Below, piece by piece: positions 8,974 to 21,621 of a DNA stretch of 34,946 nt. The notes beneath the pieces were generated by a model that was not told the DNA's origin, searched no databases, and saw only the letters and a program-made list of their open reading frames with translations. The translations under genes and the position numbers were made by a program. Source of the DNA: Thermodesulfobacteriota bacterium (lineage in GTDB: Bacteria > Desulfobacterota > Desulfobacteria > Desulfobacterales > JAUWMJ01); NCBI GenBank assembly GCA_034189135.1, contig JAXHVO010000087.1, forward strand, positions 1-34,946, read 5' to 3'. The number at the start of each line of letters is the position of its first letter. Position 1 is the first letter of the stretch.

Positions 8974-9012
8974 GATTTATGCCATTGATGAAAAAATACA
9001 TTATTTTTTTAT

Positions 9013-9035
9013 AAAACCCTAACAGACAGGGTTTT
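9013..9035. terminator. AAAACCCT/AGGGTTTT hairpin
   Basis: AAAACCCT (9013-9020) pairs with AGGGTTTT (9028-9035) around a seven-base loop. The A and T runs lie inside the stem, a pattern seen in bidirectional terminators, but no gene ends nearby. It could instead be part of the regulatory leader of the minus-strand cluster. Confidence 0.35.
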
Positions 9036-9176
9036 GTGAAGGTTTAAGCCGTTTTCAGATAAATTAGACAAAAGGCAAAAGATTCGTTTTTTCCCCCACC
9101 ACAAGACATATGCTTTTGATTCTATTGTCCAAAAACCCGTAATTATCTAAATTAATAAAACAAATTGTATTTTTAG

Positions 9177-9219
9177 TTGTCTCAAATTGAATTGCGATAC
9201 AAAATTGTCTCATAAGACA
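9177..9219. promoter_or_regulatory. repeated TTGTCTCA sites
   Basis: TTGTCTCA occurs at 9177-9184 and again at 9205-9212, 28 bases apart, which is close to an integral number of helical turns. The second copy is part of a near-palindrome, TGTCTCATAAGACA (9206-9219). This is the arrangement expected for an activator or repressor bound to the same face of the helix. The regulator is unknown. Confidence 0.35.
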
Positions 9220-9303
9220 GATGAGGAAATATCTGACGTATTTTTTATACTGTTTTTTATAAATTTTTATGCCCAACTGGCCACAACGAAGTATGAAACC
9301 TAA

Positions 9304-9544
9304 GGCTCGACCGGGGAATCGCCTATGGGCCAGTTACAATACTTAACAATCCTATCTGGAAATAAACGTACGGCAGCTATCTCGCTTCAATTAGTTTTAA
9401 GCCAACTCCAGGGGACAGAATCCCACGGTGACGTTGATCGTATCTGCCTGTATGGGTTTAACTGAGAATATAGGGGGCGTGTAACACACTGACCTTATAT
9501 ATTAAGTATTGTAACTGGCCCATAGGCGATTCCCCGGTCGAACC
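9304..9544 (+). repeat. 241-bp fold-back element, copy 1 (43-bp inverted arms)
   Basis: The left arm (9304-9346, beginning GGCTCGACCGGGGAATCG) is the reverse complement of the right arm (9502-9544, ending CCCCGGTCGAACC) with one mismatch in 43 bases. The 155-base centre contains CGGCAGCTATCTCGCT (9371-9386), GGGGACA, CCCACGG, CTGTATGG (9448-9455) and GGCGTGTA. The same centre occurs in opposite orientation in copy 2 (15523-15763), which has exactly the same total length. No open reading frame is present. It could be a non-autonomous mobile element or a structured RNA gene; the plus orientation is assigned arbitrarily from the core. Confidence 0.85.
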
Positions 9545-9562
9545 GAGCTAAAATGGAAAAGG

Positions 9563-9633
9563 GAACGTGTACGGAGTGTTGTACTTATTTTTTAAGGCTT
9601 GTGCGGGCAAATGAGTGCTTCCCCAGACGAGCA
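9563..9633 (+). repeat. remnant right end of a third fold-back element
   Basis: Just after copy 1, the sequence CGTGTACGGAGTG, CTTATTT, TTAAGGCT, CGGG and CAAATG follows the same order as the right end of copy 2 (read on its minus strand) through to a decayed GGTCGAACC-like end. No matching left arm or core was found, so this is a truncated copy. Its arm sequence is closer to copy 2 than to the complete copy beside it. Confidence 0.65.
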
Positions 9634-9769
9634 TCTAAAAATCATTAAAGCGGAACAGATTGATGACAACGACTATAACACTTTCCCTTTCATGAAAACG
9701 TCTCCCGGGCTTTGGCCTGTCGTTGATTATGCTGTTAGCAACTGACTCATATAAAAGCAGATAATAGCC

Positions 9770-9798
9770 TTGACAGGGAGCGACTGTTTCATTATTAA
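9770..9798 (+). promoter_or_regulatory. promoter of the TetR-RND operon
   Basis: TTGACA (9770-9775) is followed after 17 bases by TATTAA (9793-9798), a good sigma-70-type pair. The start of transcription would fall inside the palindromes that follow, so a bound repressor would block it. Confidence 0.6.
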
Positions 9799-9827
9799 TA
9801 AACATGTTTAATCAATAAGCATGTTTA
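9799..9827 (+). promoter_or_regulatory. paired palindromic operators for the TetR regulator
   Basis: TAAACATGTTTA (9799-9810) is a perfect 12-base palindrome; TAAGCATGTTTA (9816-9827) repeats it with one change, 17 bases downstream. They abut the -10 box and overlap the first possible ATG (9821). This is the expected layout for autorepression by the TetR-family protein encoded next, and it favours translation from the later ATG at 9842. Confidence 0.6.
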
Positions 9828-9841
9828 TGGGAATTAAGCGT

Positions 9842-10456
9842 ATGAACCAACGTGAAACAGCAAAATCTGAAACTCACCAGCTGATTCTTGGCACTGCTAA
9901 AAAACTCTTTCGGGAAAAGGGGGTCGAGCAATGCACCATGAGGAGTATTGCCAAGGAGGCAGGCGTTTCTGCGGCATCGGTGATTGTCCATTTCAAAAAC
10001 AAAACCGCCCTGCTGGAAGAGGCTCTTTATGAAGATATCGAACGTACCATTTCACAAGCCGTTGCAACCATGCCTGCTGAAGGGAGTCTGACTGAACGAC
10101 TCATGCACCTGGCAAAAACCATGTTTGTTTTTTATGGTATTCATAAAGAACTCTACCGTATCTTGATACGGGATACGGTATTTGAGCCGGAAGAGAACAG
10201 CCCTCACCTGACCCGGCAGTTGGAGCATTACCTGCAGTTTTTCGGTGAGCTGATTAAGCAGGAAAAGAGGATAGGCAATATTCGTCCTGATGCAGATGCA
10301 CATATCGCAGCTGAATCACTTTTTGCCTTATACTTCAAAGGACTTATGGATTTTTTGCGCAACCCGGCGATAACTGTAGAAACCGCTCTGGAAAAGCTTT
10401 CTGCCATAGCAAACCAGCACTTGACAGGCATCATGATTGTTAAGGAGAAAAAATGA
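9842..10456 (+). CDS. TetR-family transcriptional regulator
   Basis: Encodes about 204 residues (211 if ATG 9821 were used). The N-terminal helix-turn-helix is clear: ILGTAKKLFREKGVEQ, then CTMRSIAKEAGVSAASVIVHF and KNKTALLEEAL, the normal TetR sequence pattern. The C-terminal ligand domain is helical and not specific to a known subfamily. The gene overlaps the exporter gene by four bases (ATGA), so the two are translated together and the regulator probably controls the pump. Two palindromes and a promoter precede it. ATG 9842 is preferred because 9821 lies in the operator; the Shine-Dalgarno is weak for both. The inducer is unknown. Confidence 0.9.
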   Translation: MNQRETAKSETHQLILGTAKKLFREKGVEQCTMRSIAKEAGVSAASVIVHFKNKTALLEEALYEDIERTISQAVATMPAEGSLTERLMHLAKTMFVFYGIHKELYRILIRDTVFEPEENSPHLTRQLEHYLQFFGELIKQEKRIGNIRPDADAHIAAESLFALYFKGLMDFLRNPAITVETALEKLSAIANQHLTGIMIVKEKK

Positions 10457-12855
10457 CCACCGTTCACCGGAAGTTCGAAACCTGGTTTGCTGAATTTGCT
10501 GCATGGGTCTATGAAAGAAAATATGCGGCACTTGCCTGTATGCTTCTGATGACCCTTGGTTTGGCCATTCAGATACCGAAACTTACCATCGATACCCGTG
10601 ACGAAAGCCTTTTTCACCACGATGATCCGGCATTGATCGCCTACAACACCTTTCGGGACACATTCGGCCAGGATGACATGTTCATCATTGCCATGAAACC
10701 GCAAAATGGTTTGACTAAAGATTTTTTTGCTACATTATACCAGATTCACCATGAGCTGGAAGCTTCGGCTCCCTATCTGGACGATATCACCAGCCTGGTC
10801 AATGGACGAATCATCAGGGCCGAAGGCGACACACTTATAGTGGAAAATCTGATGAAAAGACCGCCGAAAACAGATATCGAGCTCCATCGGATACTAAAAC
10901 TCATTAATCACTACCCGCTTTATGAAAAATTGCTGGTGTCTAAGGACAGGTCCATTATTTCTATTTTTATTAGGGCTCAGGCTGTCAAGAAGGTCTCGGA
11001 AGATGAGCTTTTAGCTGGATTTGAGCAGGAGGGGTCACAGAAAATCAATAACCGGCGTATTTATCTGAGCAACGCAGAGAATGTCAAAATTTATGAGGCA
11101 ATCCGTAAGGTGGCAGCAAGGTACCAAGGCCGGGGAATCGAATTTCATTTCACCGGAACACCGGCATTCGTCGCTGAAATTCAAAAAGGCATTGAAGAAG
11201 ATATGAAAATCATGCTTCCCTTGTCATTTTTTATGATTGTCCTTTTTCTTGCTATCCTTTTCCGAAGGATTTCGGGGGTCATCTATCCATTGGTTATTGT
11301 GTCCTTTTCTCTCGTATCCTGTCTGGGTATTATGGCGATGGCCGCAATGCCTATTACCAATGCCAGTCAAATTCTGCCGATATTTCTTATTGTAGTAGGC
11401 ATTGGCGACAGTGTCCATATTCTAACAATTTTTTACCGGCTCCATCGCAACACAAACGATAAACGCCGGGCTATCATCCAGGCCGTGAGGTATGCCGGGT
11501 TGCCGGTGTTGATGACCAGCGTGACCACCGCATGCGGTCTGGTATCCTTTGCTTGGGCGGATGTAGCAGTTATCGCACAACTCGGCTACATTGCGCCTGT
11601 AGGCGTCATGCTGGCTTTTTTTTATACAGTGGTTTTGTTACCGGCCTTGATTGCCGTATTCCCCATTAGACAGGCCAAATCATTTCCCAAAGACAAACAG
11701 CTAATTGCGGATCGGCTATTTGACGCGATTGCTCGAGTAACAACGCGGCGTCCAATGGTTATGGCCCTTATTTCAACGGTCATCTTAGTGGTGGTCGGTT
11801 TCAGTGCCTTTTCTGTTCGGTTTTCCCATAACGCTCTGACCTGGTTTCCCCAAAATGCCCCCATCCGGGTTTCAACAAATCTACTCGATAACATCAATGG
11901 CGGCACTGTAATGCTTGAAATAACAGTCGATTCCGGCACGGAAAACGGTCTGTATGATCCGGATCTGCTTCGGAGGCTGGATGAAGCGGCAGCCTTTGTG
12001 CCAGGTGTAAAAGTACACGGTATTCAGGCGGGCAAAGCCTGGTCCATTTCCGACGTGCTAAAGGAAATTAACCGTGCCCTGCATGAAGATCGAAATGACG
12101 CCTATCGGGTGCCGACTAAACGGGAAACGATTGCCCAGGAGCTGATTTTATTCGAATCAAGCGGAAGCGAAGACCTTGAAGATTTTACCGACAGCACCTA
12201 TCAAACCGCGCGTCTTTCTATCCTCGCTCCCTTCACCGACTCCGTTCTGTACAAAGATTATGTGGAAAAAGTCAAAGGGTATCTCGACAAACAGTTTCCC
12301 CATGAAACCGTTATCCTGACGGGACATATGGCCCTTTTTGTGAAGATCACCAAAAACTTTATCACCAGCATGGCCAAAAGCTACGGTTTTGCATTACTGG
12401 TCATCACCTTTCTGATGGTGCTGATGATCGGGCGCATACGGATCGGGCTGATGAGCATGGTTGCCAACGTGGTCCCGATCATCTGTATTTTCGGGATCAT
12501 GGGGTCCTGCCGTATCCCATTGGATATGTACACGATTATGATTGGCAGCATTGTTCTGGGGCTGGTGGTGGATGATACCATTCAATTTCTTCACCACTTC
12601 CGCAGAGCCTATGATGAAACAGCGAGTGTTGAGTTCGCAGTACGCGAAACCCTGCATTCCACCGGGCGGGCTTTGGTGATTACCAGCCTGGTGCTCTGTG
12701 GCGGCTTTTTTATCTACACGACTTCATACCTGACGAGTAATGTACGGTTTGGTGTGTTAACCGGCAGCGCGGTGCTTTTTGCCCTGGCAGCGGATTTTTT
12801 CCTGGTACCCGCCTTACTCAGTCTGGCGTATGGGAAAAGGACGTCTATCCCTTAA
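10453..12855 (+). CDS. RND/MMPL-family exporter (HAE3-like)
   Basis: Encodes 800 residues with the duplicated RND layout: one N-terminal membrane helix (YAALACMLLMTLGLAIQIP), a large periplasmic loop, then five helices starting IMLPLSFFMIVLFLAILF, and the same plan repeated in the second half (from about 430 and again from 640). At roughly 800 residues without the long docking domains it resembles hopanoid or lipid exporters and MMPL proteins more than AcrB. GDSVHI and DDTIQFLHHF in equivalent positions of the two halves are typical of the family. It would move a hydrophobic compound across or out of the inner membrane using the proton gradient. AAGGAG precedes the ATG, which overlaps the TetR stop. 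No membrane fusion or outer-membrane partner gene follows. Confidence 0.9.
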   Translation: MTTVHRKFETWFAEFAAWVYERKYAALACMLLMTLGLAIQIPKLTIDTRDESLFHHDDPALIAYNTFRDTFGQDDMFIIAMKPQNGLTKDFFATLYQIHHELEASAPYLDDITSLVNGRIIRAEGDTLIVENLMKRPPKTDIELHRILKLINHYPLYEKLLVSKDRSIISIFIRAQAVKKVSEDELLAGFEQEGSQKINNRRIYLSNAENVKIYEAIRKVAARYQGRGIEFHFTGTPAFVAEIQKGIEEDMKIMLPLSFFMIVLFLAILFRRISGVIYPLVIVSFSLVSCLGIMAMAAMPITNASQILPIFLIVVGIGDSVHILTIFYRLHRNTNDKRRAIIQAVRYAGLPVLMTSVTTACGLVSFAWADVAVIAQLGYIAPVGVMLAFFYTVVLLPALIAVFPIRQAKSFPKDKQLIADRLFDAIARVTTRRPMVMALISTVILVVVGFSAFSVRFSHNALTWFPQNAPIRVSTNLLDNINGGTVMLEITVDSGTENGLYDPDLLRRLDEAAAFVPGVKVHGIQAGKAWSISDVLKEINRALHEDRNDAYRVPTKRETIAQELILFESSGSEDLEDFTDSTYQTARLSILAPFTDSVLYKDYVEKVKGYLDKQFPHETVILTGHMALFVKITKNFITSMAKSYGFALLVITFLMVLMIGRIRIGLMSMVANVVPIICIFGIMGSCRIPLDMYTIMIGSIVLGLVVDDTIQFLHHFRRAYDETASVEFAVRETLHSTGRALVITSLVLCGGFFIYTTSYLTSNVRFGVLTGSAVLFALAADFFLVPALLSLAYGKRTSIP

Positions 12856-12957
12856 AGCAATTCTGTGGGTCTTCACATTCATCTGTCCTCCAAAAATAGA
12901 TAGATTCCGCTTTTCGTTTATTTTTCCGGACCAACGTTCGATAAAATTTAGCGGCGA

Positions 12958-12991
12958 TTGCAACACGGGTTGTTGTAAGAGTCTTTTTTTT
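12958..12991 (+). terminator. rho-independent terminator of the TetR-RND operon
   Basis: TTGCAACA (12958-12965) pairs with TGTTGTAA (12971-12978) around CGGGT, followed closely by eight consecutive T residues (12984-12991). It lies 100 bases after the exporter stop codon. Confidence 0.8.
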
Positions 12992-13117
12992 CAATAAATG
13001 CTAAAGTGTACCCTGCTAAAAGCCGATATGATAAACAAATTGGCATGCAAGATTTGCACGTCATAATGAGCAGAAAGATTAGATATCAACCACCCAAACT
13101 TGCTGAGAGGTAAAAAA

Positions 13118-15136
13118 ATGCGTAATTTGCAGTTCAAACACAAACTGACTTTACATGTGTGCTTTTTAGTTGCTTTCACCATGATTGTTTCCACCATCAT
13201 CGTCTCATTTACGGTAAACCGGCAAAATAAAAAAATAAGCTACCAATCGCTAAAAAAGACCTTTGTGGTGATCCATCATACCTTAACCGATCTCAGCAAA
13301 AAGACGCTTCACAATGCCAGACAGATTATTCCCGCCACCAATCTGGGTAGCAAGATCAAATTCCTCGGAGATTATCATGACAACATTGAAATGACACGCA
13401 ATACTTATGAGGAAATCACCCGACAGCTCTATTCGGCAGTGCTGGCGAATCAGATCTGGCAGTTGGCGGTTTATGATATGAATTCCAACCTTAAGGCCTT
13501 CGTCCGGTTTCACCAGGATTACATATTGGCAGGTTACTGTTACCATAAAGATGGAAAACCGGTGTATAATTTGGCCAAACTTAAACCGGGAGAGCAAATT
13601 GGAAATAACTGGCAGCAAACTGAACAACTGGCGAACCAAACCTCCTTGCAGGTGGGAAAGGCACCTGAAAAGGACGGGGTAAATTACGTATCTTTGGATG
13701 GTTTCGCAGGAATTGCCGGAACGGCGCTGGCAAAGGCTAAATTTTATATGGAAGATTCCGATGAACCGGTTTTGAAGCCCACCGGTTTTGTTGCAGCGGT
13801 GCGCAGGCTTGATCAGGGATTTATGTCACGTATTCACCAGTTTACCGGTTCAGAAATCAACATATTCACCCGAAAGGGATTGAGTATCGGAACACTTCCT
13901 GATTTCAATACGCTAGATATTAGAGCATTTTCCGGATCGGAAAAAAAAGAAAAGGTCGAAGGGCATACCATTGCCTTTGAAGAAACCTCGGTAAACAAAA
14001 AACGCTTTTTAAGGGGAACATTGATTCTTGAAGGGCATCGGAAACCGGCTGGGGCGATTGCTGCTCTGTATTCACTTGACATTGCCTATGCCAATACATT
14101 GCAGATGGTGAAACTGCTTGCAGGAGTGGCGTTACTTTGTGTCCTGGCAGCCACACCTTTTACCATGATGCTGATCCGAACCGTTACCCGGCCCATCAAC
14201 ACCATAATCGACGGTTTGCGGAGCGGGGCCGAGCAGGTTGCCGCGGCGGCCGGGCAGGTTTCCTCGGCCAGCCAAACATTGGCCGAAAGCGCCTCAAAAC
14301 AGGCATCATCTCTGGAAGAAGGCTCTGCTTCCCTGGAAGATATTTCAACCATGACCCAAGAAAACGCTGCAAAGGCCCATGAAGCAGATACTCTAATGAA
14401 AGAAGCCCAGGTGGTCGTCGGCAGGGCCAACGAATCCACCGGTGCTTTGACCGAATCGATGGCGGAAATATTCAAGGCCAGCGAAGAAACCTCAAAGATC
14501 ATCAAAACCATTGACGAGATCGCCTTTCAAACCAACCTGCTGGCACTCAACGCAGCAGTAGAGGCAGCGCGAGCCGGTGAAGCCGGGGCCGGTTTTTCAG
14601 TGGTGGCTGATGAAGTACGTAATCTGGCCATGCGTGCTTCCGAGGCGGCGAAAAACACAACGACACTTATTGAAGGCACCTCCAAAAAGGTCCAACAGGG
14701 CGGTGAACTGGTGGGTAAAACCAATGAGGACTTTTCCGCGGTGGAAACCACGGCAAGCAAGGTTGCCGTTCTGGTCAATGAAATTGCTGCTGCCTCCAAT
14801 GAACAGTCCCAGGATATCCATCAGGTCAATGCCGCCGTGTCGGAGGTGGATAAGGTGGTTCAGCAGAACGCATCCAGCGCAGAGGAGTCGGCCAGCTCCT
14901 CCGAGGAAATGAGCGCTCAGGCCCAGCAAATGAAACGCAATGTGGAAAAACTGGTCCAATTAATCGGCAAAACAAGCAAAAAAAACGGCCAACAGGGAAA
15001 AAAAAGAAAACCCCGAGAGGTTGCGGCACAAAACGTTTCAGGCAAAATAGAAACGCGTCCGCCTTCGGCTTCAAAAAGGATAATTTCTCCTAGCCAAGTT
15101 CTGACCATAGAAGATGCCGACTTTCAGGACTTTTAA
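13118..15136 (+). CDS. methyl-accepting chemotaxis protein with a large periplasmic sensor
   Basis: Encodes about 672 residues. A membrane helix at about 13-32 is followed by some 300 periplasmic residues of the Cache type, then a second helix at about 330-353 ([20 protein letters not shown]). The cytoplasmic signalling domain contains the hairpin tip, with [20 protein letters not shown] and [15 protein letters not shown], as in the consensus, flanked by Ala/Ser/Glu-rich methylation helices. Only TRPIN follows the second helix before the signalling coiled coil begins, so a full HAMP domain is missing or much shortened. The tail is Lys-rich and ends [13 protein letters not shown], not the CheR-binding NWETF pentapeptide. 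GAGAGG upstream of 13118 decides this start over TTG 13100. The ligand is unknown. Confidence 0.92.
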
Positions 15137-15231
15137 CGGCATCGCCTGATACAGCGCCAAAGGGCATTCGGTGGTGCAGTCCGATTAATTTGGCTGATGC
15201 CCCTTCCGCCGAATCGCACCCTTACTGCAGC

Positions 15232-15254
15232 AAAAAACCTTACGGCGGTTTTTT
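15232..15254 (+). terminator. terminator after the chemoreceptor gene
   Basis: AAAAAACC (15232-15239) pairs with GGTTTTTT (15247-15254) around TTACGGC. The T-run continues into a TATATA stretch. The symmetric A and T runs would allow termination in both directions, 96 bases after the chemoreceptor stop. Confidence 0.7.
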
Positions 15255-15522
15255 TATATATGAGTTTTTGATCGTTTAAAACGGAATATATTTATGTCAA
15301 ACTATATGTACGCTTGAATGTCAAAAGGGCATCTCATAAAAATCAGTGCATGTACTTTTTGATTGAATTTCAAGAACCCGGCTTTTAATTAGGCATGAAT
15401 GCCTGTTATAGAGCACTGAAAATGCTCAATTAGAATCGATTTCAGTTCCAGAATTAAATGATCAGGGAGTTTCTTATCATTGGCCTTTTTGGTGAACCGT
15501 TTGCGCTTTAATGATTGTTAGT
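15255..15522. other. gene-free stretch left of fold-back element 2
   Basis: No open frame or RNA gene recognised. Near its right side GGGAGTTT (around 15464-15471) has a complementary AAACTCCC to the right of the element (around 15778-15785), which could form an outer pairing enclosing the fold-back element. This may be chance. Confidence 0.4.
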
Positions 15523-15763
15523 GGTTCGACCGGAGAAATGCCCATTTACCCGGATCAGCCTTAACAAATAAGTCCAGCACTCCGTACACGCCTCCTATCT
15601 TCTCAGCGAAATCCATACAGAGAGAGATGATCAGCGTTGCCGTGGGGTTATGTCCCTTGAGGCTGGTTCAAATCGGATCTCAGCGAGATAGCTGCCGAAC
15701 GCCGGTTTCTCAAAACTATCGTTAAGGCTGATCCGGGTAAATGGGCATTTCTCCGGTCGAACC
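15523..15763 (-). repeat. 241-bp fold-back element, copy 2 (perfect 43-bp inverted arms)
   Basis: The left arm (15523-15565, beginning GGTTCGACCGGAGAAATG) and right arm (15721-15763) are perfectly complementary over 43 bases. The centre carries, on the minus strand, the same ordered blocks as copy 1: CGGCAGCTATCTCGCT (15697-15682), a GGGACA block, CCCCACGG, TGATC, CTGTATGG (15620-15613) and GGCGTGTA. Only the outermost 11 bases (CCGGTCGAACC) and scattered positions of the arms agree with copy 1. No coding potential. It separates the chemoreceptor gene from the FAD oxidoreductase gene. Confidence 0.88.
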
Positions 15764-15948
15764 GAGTAGAGATCGAAAAACTCCCCGACCCATCAATTAA
15801 ATAATTCAAAACGCTTCATGCCTGAAATATACTCTTGATCCTATCTATTATCCGTTTCATCGCGCTTTCTTTGCGTAATTATTCTTTCATGTTTAAGATG
15901 TATGGTCAGAGAAATAAAAAAAGCAAACTTGTTCAAAGGAGGAAAATC

Positions 15949-17592
15949 ATGGGTAAAAAAATCTCCAGACGAAACTTTCTGACCATTTCAGCGATGATTG
16001 CTGCGGGTGTTGCCCTCGATTTAAAGAAGATTTCGGCTTACGCTGGCAGCATGGGGCCCAAAAAGGATTATCCCACAGTGATCATTGGTGCAGGTCTGGG
16101 CGGATTGTGCTGTGGTGCCTACCTGGCAAAGCAGGGGATCCCGGTCACCGTAATGGAGCAACATAGTGTGCCCGGAGGGTATGCAACGTCTTTTGATCGA
16201 AAAGGAGGTAAGTTCACCTTTGAAGTATCACTACACGGTTCATCCATTCATAATAATACATCGGCGCAGATTCTTGATAATATTGGCGTCCTGAAAAAAC
16301 TGGAACTGGTTCGACTCCCCGAGGTTTATCGCCTGAAAACCCCCAACCTTGACATTTCAGTCCCACAACAGGATCCGGAGGCCTATATTCGACTTGTTGC
16401 AGAGCATTTTCCGGATGAAAAAAACGGAATACAGGGTTTTGTACAGGAAATGCTCAGTATTTCCGATGAAGTTGCCGACTATGACCGTAAGGGAAAATGG
16501 TTTAAAACCATATTTAAAATTATATTCCCGCTCCAGTATCGACATATGTGGAATGTACGCAACAAGACCCTGGCTGATTTGATAAACGAATACGTTAAGG
16601 ATCCGGCTCTTCAAGGGGTCCTGGCCGGCTTGTGGGGTTACTACGGACTGCCGCCTTCAAAGCTATCAGGGTTTTACTATGCGAACGCGACCGGCGGGTA
16701 TCTCAAGAACGGATCCTACTATTTTAAGAATCGATCCCAGGATTTGAGCAATGCACTGGCCGGAGTGATCGAAGATTCCGGTGGAAGGATCATATACGAC
16801 ACGCCGGTGGAAAAGATCCTGGTGGATAGACATTCTGTGCAGGGGGTGGTTGTATCCGGCGGAGAGACCATTTCCGCGTGTGCGGTGGTGAGCAATGCCA
16901 GCGGATTTACCACTTTCAAGGCAATGCTGCCTCCAAAGGTCGCTCCGGCCGAATATATGAAAAAGCTGGAAGGATATCGGCCCAGCATTTCTTCCTTTAT
17001 TGTGTGGCTCGGATTAAACCGGGAATTAAGAGGTAAAATCGATGCATACAGCACTCATGTGTCTTCTGGCCGTGGGGCTGAGGTCGATTATCAATCGTGT
17101 TTGAAGGGAGAAATCGAAAAAACAGGGTTCGCCGTCACCATCTATGATAACCTGTTTGAAAACTATTCACACCTTGGGACATCGACTCTCATGCTTCTTT
17201 CCCTTTCAGGTTATGAACCCTGGCGAAAATTCGAAGCCGATTATAGAGCCGGTCGAAAAGAGGCTTACAACAAAGAAAAGGATAGATGGACCGATATCCT
17301 CATCCGTCGGGCCGAGGAAATGCTTATTCCCGAGCTTTCTTCCATGATTGAGGTGAAAGAGGCGGCAACCCCCCTGACCAACTGGCGATACACCGGAAAC
17401 ACTGATGGAGCCATTTACGGTTTCGAGCAGTCGATGGACAATGCCTATATGAACCGAATCGACAACCGGACTCCTGTAAAAGGACTTTATCTGGCCGGCG
17501 CATGGGGAAATCCGGGTGGTGGCTACGTAGGGGCGTTAAGATCCGGAGAAGAAACTTTTCAGAAAATGATGGAGGATTGGGGAAAAGGATAA
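15949..17592 (+). CDS. Tat-exported FAD-dependent oxidoreductase, phytoene desaturase-like
   Basis: Encodes 547 residues. The N-terminus (KKISRRNFLTISAMIAAG) is a twin-arginine signal, so the folded flavoprotein would be exported or membrane-attached. Next comes the dinucleotide-binding motif VIIGAGLGGLCCGAYLAKQG, then MEQHSVPGGYATSF, typical of the carotenoid desaturase and isomerase (CrtI/CrtISO) group of amine-oxidase-like flavoproteins. The C-terminus LYLAGAWGNPGGGYVGAL is the second FAD-contacting motif. AAAGGAGGAAA before ATG 15949 decides the start over the longer frame from 15835. The methyltransferase-like gene follows after 10 bases. A retinoid, carotenoid or quinone-like lipid substrate is plausible from the family but not shown. 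Confidence 0.88.
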   Translation: MGKKISRRNFLTISAMIAAGVALDLKKISAYAGSMGPKKDYPTVIIGAGLGGLCCGAYLAKQGIPVTVMEQHSVPGGYATSFDRKGGKFTFEVSLHGSSIHNNTSAQILDNIGVLKKLELVRLPEVYRLKTPNLDISVPQQDPEAYIRLVAEHFPDEKNGIQGFVQEMLSISDEVADYDRKGKWFKTIFKIIFPLQYRHMWNVRNKTLADLINEYVKDPALQGVLAGLWGYYGLPPSKLSGFYYANATGGYLKNGSYYFKNRSQDLSNALAGVIEDSGGRIIYDTPVEKILVDRHSVQGVVVSGGETISACAVVSNASGFTTFKAMLPPKVAPAEYMKKLEGYRPSISSFIVWLGLNRELRGKIDAYSTHVSSGRGAEVDYQSCLKGEIEKTGFAVTIYDNLFENYSHLGTSTLMLLSLSGYEPWRKFEADYRAGRKEAYNKEKDRWTDILIRRAEEMLIPELSSMIEVKEAATPLTNWRYTGNTDGAIYGFEQSMDNAYMNRIDNRTPVKGLYLAGAWGNPGGGYVGALRSGEETFQKMMEDWGKG

Positions 17593-21513: not shown

Positions 21514-21560
21514 TATACCGCTTGCCATAAATATGCTCCGAAATATGGAATTGCGGTATA
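21514..21560. terminator. hairpin between convergent genes
   Basis: TATACCGC (21514-21521) pairs with GCGGTATA (21553-21560), and inside it CCATA pairs with TATGG. It lies between the LytTR gene and the convergent AblB-like gene and could terminate both transcripts, though T-runs are short. Confidence 0.5.
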
Positions 21561-21621
21561 AGTGGTTTTAGGTACCTGCTTATTGTGCAAGCACGCAGTT
21601 TGCTTTGTTAATGGCGGAAAG

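Follow-up and report, generated by a model that had tools for sequence, protein, structure and literature searches.

In a 34,946-nucleotide stretch of DNA from a Thermodesulfobacteriota bacterium (contig JAXHVO010000087.1 of assembly GCA_034189135.1; this whole stretch is referred to as the window and is contig C87 of G000, a draft genome in 140 contigs), two 241-bp fold-back cassettes, each consisting of a pair of 43-bp inverted arms around a 155-bp core, form the inner portion of old mobile elements that are non-coding and mostly intergenic. The cassette occupies at least 86 places in this genome, some of them incomplete. From sequence comparison, we consider it likely that the elements represent a miniature inverted-repeat transposable element (MITE) in which template switching, or recombination between the arms, homogenises the inner inverted repeat and inverts its spacer. 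If one arm is copied from the other, a change would appear on both, and a switch or crossover within the arms would invert the spacer between them. Arm copying and arm exchange would explain the matched arms and the flipped spacers jointly; there is no need to invoke a selected RNA, an invertible promoter or a dedicated recombinase.

The two fold-backs, which had been noted in a sequence-only reading of the window, are real (Table 1): one mismatch interrupts the pairing of the arms in copy 1 (42 of 43 positions paired) and none does so in copy 2 (43 of 43), and the longest perfect inverted repeat within a span of up to 300 bp in the window measures 43 bp, against a maximum of 13 bp across 50 mononucleotide shuffles. 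The hand count of about 17 differences per 43-bp arm between the copies was also borne out, the left arms differing at 18 of 43 ungapped positions and the right arms at 17 of 43. Both copies had further been credited with the same ordered internal blocks; the cassettes in fact have opposite orientations, and match at 169 of 237 aligned positions once copy 2 is reverse-complemented. The 241-bp unit likewise stands as a cassette and not as a whole element, being the inner part of a larger one, and the contrast originally drawn with ordinary miniature transposons, which keep the same terminal sequence between copies, was misdirected, because the 43-bp arms are not the termini of the element.

A search for the core in further genomes, as had been proposed, revealed a multi-copy family in the window's genome and relatives in other genomes of the order. 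Queries with copy 1 and copy 2, in which 40 of about 100 first-look candidates were scored for each, yielded 72 distinct places in G000; a core pattern that tolerated as many as 3 mismatches returned 68 places, 4 of them new, and terminus-guided stretches contributed 10 more. When 40 genomes were searched with copy 2, matches were found in four: G000, G001 and G002, which belong to the same genus, and G026, which belongs to another family. Among 389 genomes of the order, the G026 element was matched in 43 (in many via the outer terminus alone) and the G001 element in 22. Scanning with the core pattern gave 3 matches in public genome contigs and no match in the viral contigs scanned.

The cassette resides in two types of element that have GAG...AGATTGAAAAAC beside the cassette in common and otherwise differ in their flanks. 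The A-type, to which copy 2 belongs, is a MITE, with termini common to its copies and 8-bp target-site duplications. Its layout of about 335-347 bp comprises outer repeats that begin GAGGGGTCGGGGAGTTT and arms of 43-46 bp around a core of about 155 bp. Both termini (at least 11 of 17 positions) are present in 41 of the 50 A-class rows (33 from G000, 13 from G001, 3 from G026 and 1 from G002), at lengths of 336-347 bp, and the terminus GAGGGGTCGGGGAGTTT is matched 56 times in G000 with up to 2 mismatches, compared to 1 match in the control. The 8 bp beyond the termini of these 41 copies, which lie in AT-rich targets, show 4.90 identities versus 3.94 when shuffled; the duplication is perfect in 12 of the 41 and has 7 or 8 matches in 15, whereas lengths of 5-7 and 9-12 bp gave 0-2 perfect duplications. 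For copy 2, the automatic terminus search misplaced the degenerate left end (3 of 8 matches there), and the terminus set by eye gives AATTAAAT on both sides. Invariant arms together with target duplications had been named as the marks of a plain MITE: the duplications and conserved outer termini are present, but the inner arms vary.

For the B-type, represented by copy 1, no outer inverted repeat was seen by eye. A left flank resembling that of the B-type (86% over about 56 bp) occurs in L142/L147 (MAXL01000267.1, Desulfobacterales bacterium S5133MH16), from a different family, and the B-type may therefore predate the genus of the window's genome, as judged from this flank. Two core translations matched no Pfam family above the cut-off. 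A coding core was also considered and rejected: a minus-strand frame, KPIQAETIIAAVGICLLGLAQI or near it, recurs in several genomes, but its column entropies (0.357, 0.491 and 0.450) show no clear periodicity and no Pfam family scored above the cut-off.

Within its own flanks, the core of G000 copies occurs in both orientations, designated F and R, with 33 F and 35 R among the 68 copies that have both flanks of one type. These remained from 74 rows after 6 had been dropped, two as overlapping-locus duplicates (in L024 and L100) along with L028, L038, L044 and L073. Even splits were likewise obtained for 14 held-out G000 copies (7 F, 7 R; L109 had no usable core match and the second core of L123, which equals L013, was left uncounted) and for 13 copies from G001 (6 F, 7 R), while the one copy from G002 is R. 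On trees built without the arms, orientation changed 14 times among the 33 A copies (15 F and 18 R) and 14 times among the 34 B copies (18 F and 16 R), with shuffled-label means of 11.2 and 11.6, respectively, indicating no clustering by orientation; of the 37 rows of each type, the trees omit 4 for A and 3 for B (duplicates, incomplete copies and two hybrids). L102 and L103, at a distance of only 0.062, are oppositely oriented, and at distances of 0.06 to 0.1 the joint A tree contains close pairs of like as well as of opposite orientation; from such non-independent pairs we infer that flipping may proceed at a pace of the order of, or above, 10% divergence. Flank and core distances are correlated (Mantel r 0.40 and 0.37; reached by 5 and 0 of 1000 permutations), indicating that cassettes mostly stay with their own flanks and that the flip occurs within the element.

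Two orientations could also arise if short-read assemblers had randomly oriented the spacer between identical arms. The near-identity of the arms within a copy over about 45 bp and the draft state of G000 speak for such an artefact, which we nevertheless regard as extremely unlikely: an ordinary read is longer than a 45-bp arm, the name of contig L140, taken to be a G001 contig, includes k141, a word size that spans the arm, with G001 also splitting 6 to 7, and the homogenisation of the arms is independent of orientation.

Arms within a copy mismatch at a frequency of 0.027 (A), 0.055 (B) and 0.045 (others), compared to 0.090, 0.152 and 0.136 between copies. Measured against the terminal branches of a tree of core and flanks, 39 arm mismatches were found in A versus 297 expected and 85 in B versus 342, so that the mismatches amount to 0.13 of the expectation without homogenisation in A, 0.25 in B and 0.18 when G001 is added to A. 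This expectation may be too high; raw distances put within-copy mismatch at about one third of that between copies. Paired arm changes number 56 (A), 111 (B) and 55 (G001) and fall to 13.2, 23.9 and 20.2 when arms are re-dealt (maxima of 1000: 28, 44 and 44), an excess of 2.7 to 4.6 times that is not a probability, since re-dealing the arms keeps relatedness. Across the outer, middle and inner thirds of the arm, mismatches are distributed 23, 10 and 51 in A, 27, 20 and 68 in B and 15, 2 and 27 in G001, the inner third taking in the edge where the arms end. Mismatches are thus fewest in mid-arm (10 of 84, 20 of 115 and 2 of 44), as expected if the ends of the arms escape copying. The coordinated arm change had been attributed either to selection on the hairpin or to copying of one arm from the other. 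Copying is supported, because arms are closer within than between copies and about half of the copies carry the spacer inverted; selection on the hairpin is not needed, given the lack of any preference for G-T over A-C on the flank strand, the many paired transversions and the scarcity of common structure in the core.

If the element encoded a structured RNA, the hairpin would be transcribed, its pairing would be under selection and changes in one arm would be compensated on the other. Besides the many paired changes, this explanation can draw on folds of the whole-cassette alignment at -72 and -74 kcal/mol on the two strands, nearly all of it from the arms, on folds of single-copy cores at -33 to -42 kcal/mol, calculated without a shuffle comparison, and on the one-arm mismatches of the cassette minus strand, of which 54 are G-T and 32 A-C (32 and 54, respectively, on the plus strand, an imbalance without explanation). 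On the flank strand, however, G-T and A-C mismatches are equal at 43 each in 86 copies, transversions are common among the paired changes (23 of 56 in A, 70 of 111 in B and 25 of 55 in G001), and the aligned core folds at only -6.7 and -3.7 kcal/mol, with covariation terms of 0.00 and 0.56. Moreover, an Rfam covariance-model search of window positions 9000-16100 returned no match at E values up to 1, and the flipping of the core would leave a transcript without a fixed sense. We consider a structured RNA unlikely; exchange between the arms probably explains their constant matching without a selected RNA.

A scan of positions 15440-15810 for sigma-70 patterns found no promoter-like site, which counts against a structured RNA and equally against an inverton, in which a site-specific recombinase would flip the cassette and thereby switch neighbouring genes on or off. 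The corresponding scan of positions 9240-9670 found one site, versus 0.9 expected, outside the cassette, and neither of the two window cassettes contains terminator-like sites. The inverton gains from the ratio of the two orientations, which is about 1:1, from the location of 70 of 72 copies outside open reading frames (ORFs) of at least 90 aa, from the well-conserved inner arm end CTTAACAA and from the core lying on the gene strand in 27 of 40 tandem contexts, a slight excess. Yet the 70 gene contexts, which rest on a simple ORF rule and not on annotation, comprise 40 tandem, 19 convergent and 11 divergent cases (11 convergent and 2 divergent for the A-type alone), which is not a promoter-like placement; site-specific strand exchange alone would not leave the mid-arm most alike, and the cassettes are scattered over their many places in the genome. 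We hold an inverton to be very unlikely.

Flipping and arm copying might instead occur solely during transposition, for example through snap-back copying of a hairpin, so that every new copy would start with perfect arms and in a new orientation. In line with this, the nearest neighbour of a copy has the opposite orientation in 21 of 33 and 21 of 34 cases, a core-less relative in G002 (L133, described below) has a mismatch-free hairpin and an 8-bp duplication by eye, and orientation in the A tree alternates slightly beyond shuffles (reached by 29 of 1000; 105 for B). With G001 added, however, the excess alternation is gone (290 of 1000) and neighbours are opposite in 25 of 46 cases. Furthermore, matching seems to be kept after insertion, since the terminal branches are long (medians of 0.087 and 0.106) and, in A, arm mismatch is not tied to branch length (r 0.09; B 0.31). 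Overall, we give little credence to flipping confined to transposition. We also doubt, a little less strongly, that the cassette is a dedicated flipping module, in which a hairpin intermediate of transposition or repair would rewrite one arm and reverse the core each time, perhaps altering how neighbouring genes are read; if so, inversion would belong to the life cycle of the element and would not be a passive by-product.

Homogenisation and inversion through exchange between the arms have precedents: the available part of a study in yeast describes template switching that homogenises arms and inverts spacers (PMC8604942), and loop inversions with multiple paired changes are reported for ribosomal RNA (rRNA) genes in the portion accessible of a second study (PMC8794818). 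Beyond the limits already given for the arm comparisons, several points weigh against this explanation. The inverted spacers in yeast are only a few bp long and shorter spacers favour switching, according to the same partial text (PMC8604942); for a spacer of 155 bp, recombination fits at least as well as template switching. Some arm matching could predate insertion and stem from the source copies, and the slight excess of alternation in the A tree was not predicted. The four copies dropped from the orientation count in addition to the duplicates have mixed or one-sided flanks, implying that some exchange or rearrangement between elements takes place as well. In G026, the flanks resemble each other and orientation calls are unreliable (57 to 37, 54 to 48, 46 to 44 and 62 to 48). 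The B-type copies lack a target duplication, none standing out over 30 copies (best z 3.9 in about 11,000 settings). Finally, a 180-bp MITE with the same termini in the genome G067 has 21 same, 0 inverted and 2 not found among 23 copies, a weak control in either direction because this MITE has imperfect arms and copies of younger appearance.

Termini of the GAGGGGTCGGGGAGTTT type bound other interiors in other genomes. The core-less relative L133 (G002:C119, positions 221-378) is 158 bp long and has GAGGGGTCGGGGAGTTT-type termini, with, by eye, the 8-bp duplication ATTTAACT and a hairpin with a 4-base loop. Eight further elements of 210-278 bp (L155, L181, L156, L161, L170, L172, L173 and L177) have the same outer termini around other interiors with long imperfect inner inverted repeats, as seen by eye. 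Within G000, A-type cores are variable at positions 75-95 or so, where CAGCTATCTCG... alternates with a small palindrome, GTCCGCC..GGCGGAC.

No autonomous partner was found among the loci examined. By eye, no transposase was recognised among the ORFs of five loci with unpaired termini in G000, G001 and G002. Of 20 stretches examined in G067, 11 contain two termini with less than 700 bp between them, and the ORFs viewed in 9 of the 20 included no linked transposase by eye, except for one Y1 case. In this case (L210), about 400 bp separate a terminus from a Y1 transposase gene (PF01797); that terminus, however, opens with the bases of the 180-bp MITE of that genome, and the remainder is masked. 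The ORFs enclosed by two G067 termini 3,076 bp apart (L213) are unlike a transposase, and the locus of the sole Y1 transposase of G000 is without GAGGGGTCGGGGAGTTT-type termini. ISAs1-like transposases (PF13808) were found in 0 of 12 genomes; ISL3-like transposases (PF01610), found in 6 of the 12 at 12 loci, had no pair of termini and weak single matches at most. The best of these matches, with 1 substitution and 2 deletions (L225, G026:C14), falls within a Y1-transposase-like frame, so named by its likeness to the L210 protein. We take the Y1 (IS200-like) frames at termini in L210 (near) and L225 (inside the frame) to be a coincidence, which is not proved.

The features of the two copies and their surroundings are listed in Table 1. 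The A-type remnant that abuts copy 1 suggests that one element inserted beside or into an older one. A solitary fragment at positions 15250-15307 resembles the far 3' end of the B-type (85-91% to L068, L125, L091, L073, L088 and L096), and positions 21514-21571 hold another short dispersed repeat that is unrelated to the cassette (95% to L028 over 58 bp and 88% to L095 over 40 bp).

Table 1. Features of the two cassette-bearing elements in the window
Feature	Positions	Strand	Basis
B-type 5' flank of copy 1	about 9244-9303	+	matches left ends of other B-type copies at 83-89% over about 57 bp
Copy 1 left arm	9304-9346	+	42/43 paired with 9502-9544
Copy 1 core, 155 bp	9347-9501	+	class F inside flanks
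Copy 1 right arm	9502-9544	+	pairs with left arm
Shortened B-type 3' flank, GAGCTAAAATGGAAA	9545-9559	+	weak B3 score of 25
Partial further A-type element, with core end, a single arm and 5' flank	9560-9651	+	pair I2, 79%
Left target-site duplication AATTAAAT of A-type MITE	15452-15459	.	equals 15795-15802, terminus set by eye
Whole A-type MITE, 335 bp, holding copy 2	15460-15794	+	termini, 8-bp duplication, family alignment
Left outer terminal inverted repeat, degenerate, GATCAGGGAGTTT	15460-15472	+	family terminus GAGGGGTCGGGGAGTTT
A-type 5' flank (GGCCTTTTTGGTGAACCGTTTGCGC...)	15473-15522	+	conserved flank
Copy 2 left arm	15523-15565	+	43/43 paired with 15721-15763
Copy 2 core, 155 bp	15566-15720	-	reversed versus copy 1 core; class R inside flanks
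Copy 2 right arm	15721-15763	+	pairs with left arm
A-type 3' flank including right outer terminal repeat 15778-15794	15764-15794	+	
Right target-site duplication AATTAAAT	15795-15802	.	perfect match to left 8 bp

Invertons are phase-variable invertible promoters. Like the elements described here, they are intergenic DNA bounded by inverted repeats and found in two orientations; unlike them, our cassettes lack a promoter-like site in the two window copies scanned and have arms that are dissimilar between copies. Repeats shaped by template switching, in yeast genes and rRNA hairpins, share with our elements paired arm changes and an inverted spacer, both recurrent, in the parts of the reports at hand (PMC8604942; PMC8794818), whereas the arms are longer here (about 45 bp), the spacer measures 155 bp and tens of copies are dispersed in one genome. 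Both of those studies, as far as their available text goes, rest on separate loci (PMC8604942; PMC8794818), while the 86 or more copies of a single inverted repeat in this genome, found in either orientation and with flanks that record polarity, make the process measurable. They also serve as a warning that abundant 'compensatory' changes in a hairpin can come from DNA copying without a selected RNA, which matters for covariation-based RNA discovery.

In the open-licence literature, we found nothing that pairs 'miniature inverted-repeat transposable' with 'Desulfobacterales' and, judging by titles and abstract openings, no description of an invertible inner MITE cassette among the papers listed. 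By description, the nearest MITE precedent for inversion is the Correia repeat enclosed element of Neisseria, with more than 120 copies and a reported inversion in the accessible part of a review (PMC10969869); compared to that account, it is the inner cassette that flips here while the outer flanks stay, and the window cassettes are without a promoter-like site. With MITEs in general, the A-type shares short length, lack of coding capacity, terminal inverted repeats, 8-bp duplications, AT-rich targets, mostly intergenic location and many copies. It departs from them in that it contains, inside the outer repeats, a further pair of arms (43-46 bp) around a cassette found in both orientations, and in that the loci examined yielded no autonomous partner. 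The family is best seen as a variation on a known kind of element, namely MITEs with an inner inverted repeat that flips and corrects itself.

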